Source: Candidatus Zhuqueibacterota bacterium
GTDB taxonomy: Bacteria; SM23-31
Direction of reading: 5' to 3'
Assembly (NCBI GenBank): GCA_022562855.1
Contig: JADFON010000016.1
Span: 1 to 13,293, forward strand
Length of the DNA: 13,293 bases
Shown in pieces: positions 14 to 13,222 of the stretch; the first letter of the stretch is position 1, and each line of letters opens with the position of its first letter. The notes under the pieces were generated by a model. It searched no databases and was not told where the DNA came from. It saw only the letters and a program-made list of their open reading frames with translations. The translations under genes were made by a program, and so were the position numbers.

Positions 14-190
14 ACAACACTATCGTGTAAAATGCACCCTACACATCAAAACAGTTTCCGCCCCTCGCAAAAGTGAGTGTTGTCTAACCTTAGAACTTCG
101 TAGTTCGGGCAAGCCCCCTTTACCCGGGTCGTCCCCGACCCGCCACGTGAGTGGTCACTATGTGATTAGGGACGACTCACGCCATGTAAC
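14..190. other. GC-rich island with many inverted repeats; unclassified structured element or ncRNA
   Basis: No coding frame of note is present. The stretch is clearly richer in G and C than the AT-rich DNA after it. It contains several perfect inverted repeats: ACAACACT (14-21) with AGTGTTGT (76-83); GAACT (93-97) with AGTTC (102-106) around a TCGT loop; CGGGTC (125-130) with GACCCG (137-142); GTCGTCCC (128-135) with GGGACGAC (169-176); and CGTGAGT (146-152) with ACTCACG (175-181), the last enclosing a smaller TCAC/GTGA stem (155-158/161-164). Some pairs are mutually exclusive: bases 128-130 and 175-176 are shared by competing stems. GTGAGTG also occurs twice directly (73-79 and 147-153). 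I do not recognise it as tRNA, 5S rRNA, tmRNA, RNase P, SRP RNA or a familiar riboswitch. It could be a structured RNA on either strand, or a folded DNA site of a mobile element. Confidence 0.45.
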
Positions 191-212
191 ACGCACAAAA
201 GCTACATTTAAT

Positions 213-6740: not shown

Positions 6741-7823
6741 TCAATATAAAATGGATAGTTCAGTAGATATATCGGTCAGGACATTTACGCCCGACCCTTC
6801 AATGCTTACAACATTTTCTATTCGAACGCCATATTTGTCAGAAATATATATACCGGGTTCAACCGTAAAAACGTTTCCAATGGCTAACTCATCTTCGCTC
6901 AGAGGGGATATTTTCGGCATTTCATGGATTGAAAGTCCCACCCCGTGCCCTGCCGCGTGTCCAAAATAATCGCCATAGCCGAATTCTTTTATTACATTAC
7001 GCGCAAATGCATCTATTTCTTTTCCACCTTTACCGACTTCTATTCCGGCAATTGCCGTCTCAAGGGCGTTCCGAACAGCATTATGGATGCGCAGAAAATC
7101 ATCAGGAGGATTGCCAAAGTAAAGACAACGCGAGAAATCGGCATGATATCCCTCAATTACCGATCCGAAATCAAGTTGTATGTTTTCGCCTTTTCTTAGT
7201 TTTGTTTTCCCCGGAACTCCATGCGGCAGGGCGGTATTTTTTCCAAACAGCACTATCGGATTGAACGAATCTCCCTCGCCACCTTTTTTTTTGATTTTGT
7301 ACGATATTTCTGCAGCTATATCCGACTCTGTTACATTTTCCCTGAAATATGGCTTTATTTCATCAAATACTTTTAAAGTAATATCACATGCTTTTCTTAT
7401 TGACAATATTTCCCCGGGTGATTTCTTAGACGCTATTTTATCTAAGGTTCCGTCAAAAGGCAGCAGCGAAGAACCCGGATTGCTTGTTATAACTTCCGAC
7501 AGATTCTGATAACTGTTATAGGTAATATAATCCGATTCGAAACCAAAGGTGTTAAACCGGTTAAATTCCGTAATTTCCTTAATACTATTGATAAGACTGC
7601 CGTCAGCAAGTATTATTTTATCGTATTGCACCTCTTTTTCAGCCTGATCTTTATAACGAAAATCCGTAATAAAATATACTGCGCTATTCGTGATAATACC
7701 GAGACCGTTTGATCCTGTAAAGCCGAGAAGATATCTTAAGCTGGAGGGCTTGATTATTAGGAATGCGTCTAATTCATTGGAGGACAAGAAATGACGTAGA
7801 TCTTGAATTCGATGTTCAAGCAT
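6741..7823 (-). CDS. Xaa-Pro aminopeptidase/dipeptidase, M24B family (PepP/PepQ-like)
   Basis: Encodes 360 residues in two domains: a creatinase-like N-terminal domain (1 to about 135, with LRYLLGFTGSNG at 29-40) and the pita-bread catalytic domain. All five dinuclear metal ligands are present: Asp218 (QLDFG), Asp229 (HADFSR), His293 (GHGVGLSIHE), Glu322 (FTVEPGIY) and Glu336 (VRIENVV). The usual accessory histidines are His201 (LPHG) and His300. It should remove N-terminal residues preceding proline, or split Xaa-Pro dipeptides, in the cytoplasm; no signal peptide is seen. Length and N-domain are like the short PepQ/YpdF type, so aminopeptidase versus prolidase cannot be settled. The start overlaps the end of the TPR gene by 8 bases (ATGCTTGA). 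Confidence 0.93.
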   Translation of the reverse strand: MLEHRIQDLRHFLSSNELDAFLIIKPSSLRYLLGFTGSNGLGIITNSAVYFITDFRYKDQAEKEVQYDKIILADGSLINSIKEITEFNRFNTFGFESDYITYNSYQNLSEVITSNPGSSLLPFDGTLDKIASKKSPGEILSIRKACDITLKVFDEIKPYFRENVTESDIAAEISYKIKKKGGEGDSFNPIVLFGKNTALPHGVPGKTKLRKGENIQLDFGSVIEGYHADFSRCLYFGNPPDDFLRIHNAVRNALETAIAGIEVGKGGKEIDAFARNVIKEFGYGDYFGHAAGHGVGLSIHEMPKISPLSEDELAIGNVFTVEPGIYISDKYGVRIENVVSIEGSGVNVLTDISTELSILY

Positions 7824-10302
7824 TCATTTTTTTCTTTATTTCCGAAATTTTGTCATCTATTTTTTCATTTTCAGGTTCTTTTTCTTTGAGCTTCTCAAAG
7901 ACATGTAAAGCTTTCTCATATTTTTCCTGGGAAAAATATATTTCGCCCAGGGTCATTGTTGTTATTTCATGACCTTCTTCACCCTGTTCATCTTCATCAT
8001 CATCGATTGGTTCCAGTTCATCAATCTCCTGGTCTCTCAAATTAATCGCTTCCTCACCTTGCTCCTCAGCCGCAACTTCCCCGGATGATCCATCGGCGGA
8101 TGAAACATCTTCTACACCAATTTTTAAGTCAAGTTCTTCGGTTCCTTCACCTTCCACCGGAACATCGTCACTCATTGAGACATCTTCCTCAGAGGCAAGA
8201 CTTTCATCAAAATCGTCATCCAAAAAATCGGAATAGTCGGCGCCTGAATCACCTTCAGCTCCATCTTTTTCAGGAGAAACCTCCTTAACCTCACCACCGT
8301 CTTCTTTTTCGACCATCGCCGCCAATTCCTCTTCTTCATCGTCGATACTATCTGCGGCATCTTCATCACTTGCCAAATCTTCAGCGTCCGAATTCACGCT
8401 CTCGATTGTTTCATCATCCGCCGCTTCGCTTTCTTTTTCAGATTCTAAATCGTCAGGAGAAACACCGGTCATTTCCTCGTCCATTTTTATAGTTTCTTCT
8501 GAAATATCCGATGTTTCGGTTTCAGTTTTCTCCTCATCCAATTCTATCGATTCATCAATTTCAAAGTCTTTTTCCAGGTCCAGCGATTCTATAACCGGCT
8601 CTTCGGCTTCTTCAGAATCATCCTCATCAAAGCTAACCTCAACATCTTCTTCAGATTGCATATATTCGTCAAATGACGCCTCGTCTTCTTTGGAGTCCGA
8701 ATCCATAAGTAAGTCTTCAGCGGTTACCGCACCGTCTTCCATGTCTTCTGCACTGCCGCCCGCCTCTTCCTCCGTTCCTTCCTGTGCTTCAGTATCGGAA
8801 CCCTCTTCATCTTCCGAGACGAATTCAAGGGCATCTTCATCGAGATCTGTAGCGGTTATGTCACTTTCCACGACAACTTCTTCAGAATCTAAAGACAAAT
8901 CTCCCGACTCTTCCTTTTCAGCGCTCTCCAAATCAGGTGCTGTTTCGTCAGCTTCTTCGGGTGAAATTGTTATTTCTTTTTCGGAATCCAAGTCAGAATC
9001 TTCACCGATTTCAGACTTGATTTCCGGCTCACCGGATTCATCTTCTATGGAAACTTCCTCGAGATCATCTTCGGGTTCGATGGTGACAATTTCCTCATCA
9101 TCATCAAGGGAACTCTCGGCTTCCCCTGCGGAGACTTCACTTTCCACCGGTTCTTCACCTGAATCCACATCGACCGATATTTCTTCATCCTCTAATTGCG
9201 CTTCATCCAATGATTCGGTTTCGGATTCATCCTGCTCCAATTCCACGGTTTCATCACCGGTATCCAATTTTGAATCTTCTTCCTTGTCAACTTCTTCGAG
9301 TGAATCATCCTCAAAAGAGAGGTCTTCTGCTTCTTCTTCCGCTATTTCAAGGGATTCTGTATCTTCAAGCGTCCCCTCACCCTCTTCAGCTTCGCTTTCG
9401 CCCCCGGCTTCTTTGGACTCCGGATCAAGACCGCTTTCTCCGGTCTCTTCATCGGTAGAGACTTCTGCGGATAACTCTTCCTCACCCTCGGCAATAGTCG
9501 CGGCATCCTCAAGAGTATCGGCTTCTTCCGGAGATTCCGCTTCGGATTCTTCCAAATCTTCAGCCGGCTGAGTCAAAATATCTTCGGGAGCCTCTACCGT
9601 TTCAGTTCCCGAAATACCGGTATCTTCTTCCTGCCCTTCCGATTCAATCTCCGGTGTTTCTCCGACTGATTCATCAGGTTTTATTTCCGATTCAACCTGC
9701 ACCGATTCGTCCGCCTCGATCTCTGTTTCTTCCTGTGCGCCTTGCTGATCGTCAACGGTTACCGTTTCATCCGCTAAAGTTTCTCCTTCAGCAGATTGCT
9801 CTTCTTCCATAACGACGGACGTATCCTTATCCGAAGCCATTTCAGATTCAGATTCTTCTACAGCTACTTCTTCATTCCGGTCACTGAAGGAATCGGCAAC
9901 ACCAAGATCTTCCAAAAGGTTTTCTGCTTCCTTGTTTAACGGGTCAGCCTGAATCAAATTTCTGAGATGTTCCTCTGCCGATGCACTGTCGCCTTCGCCG
10001 CTGTAAATTTTTCCTATGAGTTTATTAGCCACGATATTATATGGGTCGAACGTAAGTATGCGGTACAGCTCCTCTCTTGCCTGCTCTTTCATCGACGCCT
10101 CAAGATAGCATTTTGCCATGACAAGACGACCGGTTATATAGTAAGGATGATCCTGAAGCCCCTGTTCGCAAATTTCAATCGCTTTTTCAAGCTCATCATT
10201 TTTGAGCCTGGTATCAGCTAACCGCGCAAAGAGAATAGACCCCTTCTCTTTGGAAATACGCTTTTCCAAAAACTTGATTTCTTTTTTTAAATTTTGCTCC
10301 AT
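7816..10302 (-). CDS. Giant acidic TPR protein with an Asp/Glu-rich disordered centre
   Basis: Encodes 828 residues. Residues 1-20 are a charged helix. Three tetratricopeptide repeats follow (about 21-54, 55-88 and 89-122, with A/G-Y and DP signatures such as the LTFDPYNIVANKLIGKIY segment at 83-100). From about 140 to 780 the protein is almost wholly Glu, Asp, Ser, Thr, Ala, Val and Gly, with very few aromatic or basic residues, and should be disordered and strongly negative. The last 47 residues return to a TPR (from TMTLGEIYFSQEKYEKALHVF, about 781-814) and end in a lysine-rich helix. No signal peptide or membrane helix is visible, so it is probably cytoplasmic. The reading frame is unbroken across the repetitive part. 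The layout faintly recalls FimV (acidic stretch plus C-terminal TPR), but LysM and membrane segments are absent. Function unknown; a scaffold is a fair inference. It heads the TPR-aminopeptidase-glycosyltransferase group. Confidence 0.8.
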   Translation of the reverse strand: MEQNLKKEIKFLEKRISKEKGSILFARLADTRLKNDELEKAIEICEQGLQDHPYYITGRLVMAKCYLEASMKEQAREELYRILTFDPYNIVANKLIGKIYSGEGDSASAEEHLRNLIQADPLNKEAENLLEDLGVADSFSDRNEEVAVEESESEMASDKDTSVVMEEEQSAEGETLADETVTVDDQQGAQEETEIEADESVQVESEIKPDESVGETPEIESEGQEEDTGISGTETVEAPEDILTQPAEDLEESEAESPEEADTLEDAATIAEGEEELSAEVSTDEETGESGLDPESKEAGGESEAEEGEGTLEDTESLEIAEEEAEDLSFEDDSLEEVDKEEDSKLDTGDETVELEQDESETESLDEAQLEDEEISVDVDSGEEPVESEVSAGEAESSLDDDEEIVTIEPEDDLEEVSIEDESGEPEIKSEIGEDSDLDSEKEITISPEEADETAPDLESAEKEESGDLSLDSEEVVVESDITATDLDEDALEFVSEDEEGSDTEAQEGTEEEAGGSAEDMEDGAVTAEDLLMDSDSKEDEASFDEYMQSEEDVEVSFDEDDSEEAEEPVIESLDLEKDFEIDESIELDEEKTETETSDISEETIKMDEEMTGVSPDDLESEKESEAADDETIESVNSDAEDLASDEDAADSIDDEEEELAAMVEKEDGGEVKEVSPEKDGAEGDSGADYSDFLDDDFDESLASEEDVSMSDDVPVEGEGTEELDLKIGVEDVSSADGSSGEVAAEEQGEEAINLRDQEIDELEPIDDDEDEQGEEGHEITTMTLGEIYFSQEKYEKALHVFEKLKEKEPENEKIDDKISEIKKKMNA

Positions 10303-12127: not shown

Positions 12128-13222
12128 TCACGGTTGATACAACCGTTTTGCCCCTTTTAATCCAATATCGGTCCGGTAGTAAGCCTTCTCAAAATTAACG
12201 GATTCGACCAGGAAATACGCTTGCTCTATTGCCCAATTCAAATCTTCGTTCAAGGCATTCATACAGAGCACCCTCCCCCCATTAGTGTACATTTTGCCGT
12301 TTTTAATTATGGTCCCTGCGTGAAATATCTTTTGTTTTGGAGAAAGATACACATCGTCAAGCCCGAAAATCTCCTTGCCCTTTTCATATTTATCAGGGTA
12401 TCCGCCTGACGCAATTACCACACCCACAGAATACCAGGGGGTTATTTTTAAGTTGATATCACTTATTGTTTCATCAATTGTTGCATCGAATAATTCTACG
12501 ATGTCGTTCTCAATAAGCGGCACAACCACCTGCGTTTCGGGATCGCCAAACCTGCAATTAAACTCAACTACTTTTGGACCCGATTCGGTTACCATAAGTC
12601 CTGCATACAATAATCCTTTATAAGGATGCCCTTCGGCGCGCAACGCATCGAGCACCGGTTTGATAATAGTTTTGCTTATTTTGTACAGCAAATCGTCATC
12701 TGCAATCGGGGCGGGAGCGTACGCCCCCATTCCCCCGGTATTAGGTCCTTTGTCGTCATTGTATACCGGTTTATGGTCCTGGGATGACGGCAGCATCAGG
12801 AAATCTTTGCCATCTGTCAGGACAAAAATTGAAACCTCTTCTCCGGTCATGAATTCTTCAATTACCACACTGTTTCCCGCATCCCCGAACGATTTGTCGA
12901 CCATAATCGACTTTACAGCCTTTACCGCTTCCTCTTCCGTTTTACAAACAAGCGCCCCCTTTCCGGCTGCAAGACCGTCAGCTTTTACGACTATGGGTGT
13001 TTTTCGGTTTTTCAGATAGCTCAAAGCCTCTTCAGAGTCTTTAAAATTCTGAAGTTTTTGTTCGAAATTTAATTCACCAAGCTCGGCTTTTAACTCTTCT
13101 ATTAATTTAGCTTGGTTTTCAAAGTGAAGTTTTTTTACACATTCTTGCCAATGCTCCTCGGGTTCTTTCAGGAGATAAGCACGAGAATCAAAATCAAGTG
13201 GAAATACAATATGTCGCTTCAT
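12128..13222 (-). CDS. purD: PurD-like phosphoribosylamine-glycine ligase lacking its N-terminal domain (chimeric N-terminus)
   Basis: Encodes 364 residues against about 420-430 for normal PurD. From residue 61 it is a clear PurD ATP-grasp enzyme: IVVKADGLAAGKG (77-89), IEEFMTGEEV (121-130), SSQDHKPVY (146-154), GPNTGGMGAYAPAP (159-172), EFNCRFGDPETQ (220-231), ASGGYP (271-276) and TNGGRVLC (313-320). It should form GAR from phosphoribosylamine, glycine and ATP in purine synthesis. However, the PurD N-domain, with its GGREHA nucleotide-fold start, GPE motif and the stretch up to about E. coli residue 120, is absent. Residues 1-60 (MKRHIVFPLDFDSRAYLLKE and a charged helix) are unlike it. Other frames of this region show no PurD N-terminus. 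It is probably inactive or altered as drawn, or an assembly chimera. Confidence 0.85.
   Translation of the reverse strand: MKRHIVFPLDFDSRAYLLKEPEEHWQECVKKLHFENQAKLIEELKAELGELNFEQKLQNFKDSEEALSYLKNRKTPIVVKADGLAAGKGALVCKTEEEAVKAVKSIMVDKSFGDAGNSVVIEEFMTGEEVSIFVLTDGKDFLMLPSSQDHKPVYNDDKGPNTGGMGAYAPAPIADDDLLYKISKTIIKPVLDALRAEGHPYKGLLYAGLMVTESGPKVVEFNCRFGDPETQVVVPLIENDIVELFDATIDETISDINLKITPWYSVGVVIASGGYPDKYEKGKEIFGLDDVYLSPKQKIFHAGTIIKNGKMYTNGGRVLCMNALNEDLNWAIEQAYFLVESVNFEKAYYRTDIGLKGAKRLYQP
13043..13222 (-). other. Foreign 5' segment joined in frame to purD
   Basis: These 60 codons encode a start with FPLDFDSR followed by an amphipathic charged helix rich in E, K, L and Q. They do not resemble the PurD Rossmann-like start. 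I count about 34% G+C here against about 48% in purD at 12721-13020. The join falls at QNFKDSEEAL (residues 58-67), where PurD itself commonly has a similar sequence (E. coli has YQNFTEVEPAL), so microhomology may lie at the junction. It is probably the beginning of another gene, possibly of an uncharacterised protein family. I cannot name it from the sequence. Confidence 0.6.

Follow-up and report, generated by a model that had tools for sequence, protein, structure and literature searches.

Whether a purD reading frame in which about 60 unrelated codons stand in place of the N-terminal domain represents a real gene fusion or a chimeric join is the question raised by the locus described here. 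The frame lies close to the end of the analysed stretch of DNA (hereafter, the window), which is a complete contig (C390; 13,293 nt) of a draft genome of 2.51 Mb, distributed over 491 contigs and 80% complete.

Domain content of the composite reading frame

The frame encodes 364 amino acids with no break; the PurD (phosphoribosylamine--glycine ligase) sequence starts from about residue 58, while the first 57 codons or so are of a non-PurD type (Table 1). The ATP-grasp domain (GARS_A, Pfam PF01071) was matched only from residue 56 (profile positions 19–194, E = 1.9e-73), whereas the match to the C-terminal domain (GARS_C, PF02843) was full-length (E = 1.4e-29); both domains are present above the curated cut-offs, and residues ~58–364 are those of an ordinary PurD. 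The match to the NCBIfam equivalog TIGR00877 (purD; 374 bits versus a cut-off of 288) starts at model position 121 out of 425; thus, the N-terminal domain of PurD is missing from the frame. This domain (GARS_N, with the MKILVxGGGGREHA start) is absent from the window because it lies elsewhere in the same genome, at the end of contig C241. The comparison of residues 1–60 with the intact PurD of a relative did not retrieve any real match, the best local alignment embedding 13 residues (E = 3). These partial family matches, together with the lack of similarity to the relative's PurD, confirmed the original prediction of a purD frame lacking its N-terminal domain and starting with unrelated residues; the unbroken frame and the join at QNF-K are also as it described them.

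The same prediction relied on a difference in G+C content between the head (about 34%) and the purD body (about 48%). The contrast does exist (33.3% and 45.0%, respectively), but its use as strong evidence was rejected, since about 9% of all the 183-base stretches on C390 are as low in G+C as the head; taken alone, it is weak evidence.

Table 1. Coordinates of the features discussed in the text (positions refer to the window).
Feature	Position	Strand	Evidence
Composite ORF of 364 aa, very probably spurious: 5' end of an unrelated gene plus purD without its N-terminal domain	12128..13222	-	Family matches; comparison with the PurD of G001
True purD part, with the GARS ATP-grasp and C domains; continues on C241:1-397	12128..13052	-	Pfam/NCBIfam matches; 69% identity to G001 PurD 119-425; G001 gene order
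Region overlapping C241:1-38 (35/38 identical); the purD 5' part of C241 begins there	13015..13052		Sequence comparison
Exact 13-base word TTTAAAATTCTGA in both contigs, QNFK on the - strand; very probable join point of the chimera	13040..13052		Sequence comparison
Foreign head: start (~57 codons) of an unrelated gene for a conserved hypothetical protein	13053..13222	-	38-41% identity to 278- and 324-aa proteins
Stretch presumed to lie upstream of the foreign gene, to the contig end	13223..13293		25% G+C

The 5' part of purD and the gene order in relatives

The original prediction proposed a search of the genome for a second, complete purD. Searching it with the PurD ATP-grasp family retrieved the first bases of C241, a contig that begins inside purD. 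The purD part of this contig codes for 132 amino acids (MKILVIGGGGREHAL...TADYQNFKYSEKALSF), is open at the contig end and corresponds exactly to the piece absent from the window; uvrB adjoins it. A search of this genome also retrieved the overlap between C241:1-38 and the window (92% identity, E = 1e-8), and the similarity between the two contigs ends right after TTTAAAATTCTGA; on both of them, this word is read as QNFK in the frame of purD. Each of the three mismatches in the overlap changes an amino acid; they may represent either strain differences or errors at the contig ends. No foreign sequence was found at the end of C241.

The organization of the locus was then compared with that of related genomes; gene names derive from the reading of the translations, except for that of purD, which rests on matches to family models. 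In a genome of the same family (G001), one contig (C166) harbors in a single row uvrB (only its end), purD, a sigma-54-type activator gene, and the genes for an LptE-like lipoprotein, an acidic TPR protein and an Xaa-Pro-type peptidase; purD is intact there (428 aa, starting MKILVVGGGGREHAL). The window holds the last five genes of this row in the same order and C241 holds uvrB and the purD start; hence, the G001 order is that of C241 joined to C390. Moreover, the sequence identity to G001 is similar for the genes of C241 (72% for UvrB and 73% for the N-terminal part of PurD) and of C390 (69% for the PurD body and 72% for the activator), which implies that both contigs are equally distant from G001. 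A genome of the same class (G003) shares the downstream order, and its purD runs upstream as an ordinary PurD until the contig end. The fused architecture was found in none of the relatives: no purD match among 40 relatives spans the whole head, and nearly all the matches begin at residue 54 or later; the strong ones do not reach further back than query residue 40 and mostly start between 54 and 65. The comparison of the locus in relatives, also proposed with the original prediction, therefore yielded an intact purD in G001 and the 364-residue architecture in no relative searched.

According to this gene order (uvrB-purD-activator), C241 and C390 should adjoin in the genome; the assembly contains no such scaffold link. 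The very acidic protein encoded beside purD, the activator gene and the LptE-like gene, a position that is conserved, consists of 828 residues in the window (7816-10302, minus strand), 707 in G001 (L047:3735-5858) and at least 605 in G003 (L048:2-1816). In all three, the TPR-like N-terminus is conserved, as is a motif at the C-terminus (ATMTLGEIYISQ..); between them lies a long, Glu/Asp-rich and poorly conserved middle region.

Origin of the foreign head

The foreign sequence represents the last 241 bases of C390. Over their whole length, the first 62 codons of the head can be aligned with the N-terminal part of proteins from an unrelated and unnamed family (conserved, hypothetical), including a protein of 278 aa from genome G458 (41% identity) and one of 324 aa encoded by a plasmid of Bradyrhizobium septentrionale (WP_166217214.1; 38% identity). 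The full-length members of this family run on past the join (NFIDLGP, NVTDLGP; NFxDLGP..) into a long conserved region, whereas the head keeps only their first ~57–62 residues and lacks the long conserved remainder. This implies that, in its last ~241 bases, the window contains the 5' end of another gene together with its upstream region, cut at the join.

The search for a full-length homolog of residues 1–60 was thus fruitful in G458 and on the Bradyrhizobium plasmid and not in this genome, where no other part of this family was found; the continuation of the foreign gene is known from other genomes only. Pattern-based scans retrieved no relative of the head from collections of genome contigs and viral contigs, and none of the Bradyrhizobium protein from the genome contigs. 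Probing Pfam, NCBIfam and PADLOC with the 61-residue head gave nothing significant; furthermore, no homolog was detected in phages, in the other five genomes searched of the phylum, or in 398 genomes of one other phylum.

A probable chimeric contig end and the alternative scenarios

The two halves of purD, the terminal overlap, the gene order of G001 and the identity of the head favor the idea that the composite frame is a chimeric contig end, i.e., an assembly artefact, and that purD is ordinary and full-length in the organism; we consider this reading very probable (about 0.94). The three mismatches in the overlap count against it, as C241 and C390 may stem from different strains or have ends of poor quality. 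The true continuation of purD lies elsewhere, on C241, and the join falls in a word common to both contigs, near a contig end. Of the two scenarios originally proposed, the chimeric join close to a contig end is strongly supported by the 5' part of purD on C241, the 38-base overlap and the intact order in G001; the deletion between two genes with the same direction is contradicted, since the purD N-terminus and uvrB, which it would have removed, are both present in the genome.

In this scenario, the real purD would be located between uvrB and the sigma-54-type activator gene, and the draft assembly would have broken within it. The C390 side would have been extended through the 13-base TTTAAAATTCTGA into the ~241 bases of the unrelated gene; the frames of the head and of purD would agree by chance over the common QNFK codons, so that the chimeric ORF stays open. 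The organism most likely harbors an ordinary and complete purD, and the join probably arose during library preparation or assembly (by a template switch, a chimeric read or a low-coverage extension) rather than in a cell. In DNA amplified by MDA, chimeras are known to be primed at 2–21 shared nucleotides (Lasken and Stockwell 2007, PMC1855051). The C390 join resembles them in lying at a short word (13 bases) shared by unrelated sequences, and they would be a direct parallel if the DNA of this genome had been amplified; most MDA chimeras are inverted or intramolecular.

Among the alternatives, a real in-frame fusion, generated by recombination or deletion in a minority strain, with C241 representing a strain with intact purD, appears very improbable. 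The three mismatches in the overlap allow for two strains and the frame continues across the join; however, uvrB and the purD N-terminal part, which a deletion would have eliminated, are both in the genome, the foreign part stops with the contig after 241 bases, and no further piece of the foreign gene exists in the genome. The product, moreover, would lack the PurD N-terminal domain, an architecture found in no relative searched. Less probable still is the insertion into purD of a mobile element that brought in the foreign gene; C390 and C241 would then be the two sides of this insertion and the overlap a target-site duplication. It is true that the two contigs are interrupted at one and the same position of purD and overlap briefly there, but foreign sequence is missing from the end of C241, a duplication of 38 bases would not usually show three differences, and the 241 bases contain neither a recognizable transposase nor a terminal repeat; the N-terminus of the foreign gene, moreover, would need to have joined the interrupted gene precisely in frame. 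The least credible scenario of all is that PurD really exists here in a shortened form, its lost N-terminal domain being replaced by a new one. Only the open frame speaks for it; the head corresponds to the N-terminal portion of another protein of 278–324 aa, cut mid-protein, a normal PurD N-terminus exists on C241, and G001, of the same family, has an ordinary PurD.

The preferred reading, i.e., the chimeric contig end, entails a caution: an in-frame chimera at the end of a contig can mimic a gene fusion, and anyone taking the composite ORF as real would wrongly describe a purine-pathway enzyme as truncated. Read correctly, it links two contigs of the draft genome, C241 and C390.

At the other end of the window (70-201) lies a dispersed, G+C-rich repeat of roughly 100–130 bases, able to fold into hairpins, which had no match in Rfam. 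BLAST retrieved 22 further sites in the genome (75–96% identity), several of them less than 200 bases from contig ends; this repeat may help to explain the fragmentation of the assembly.
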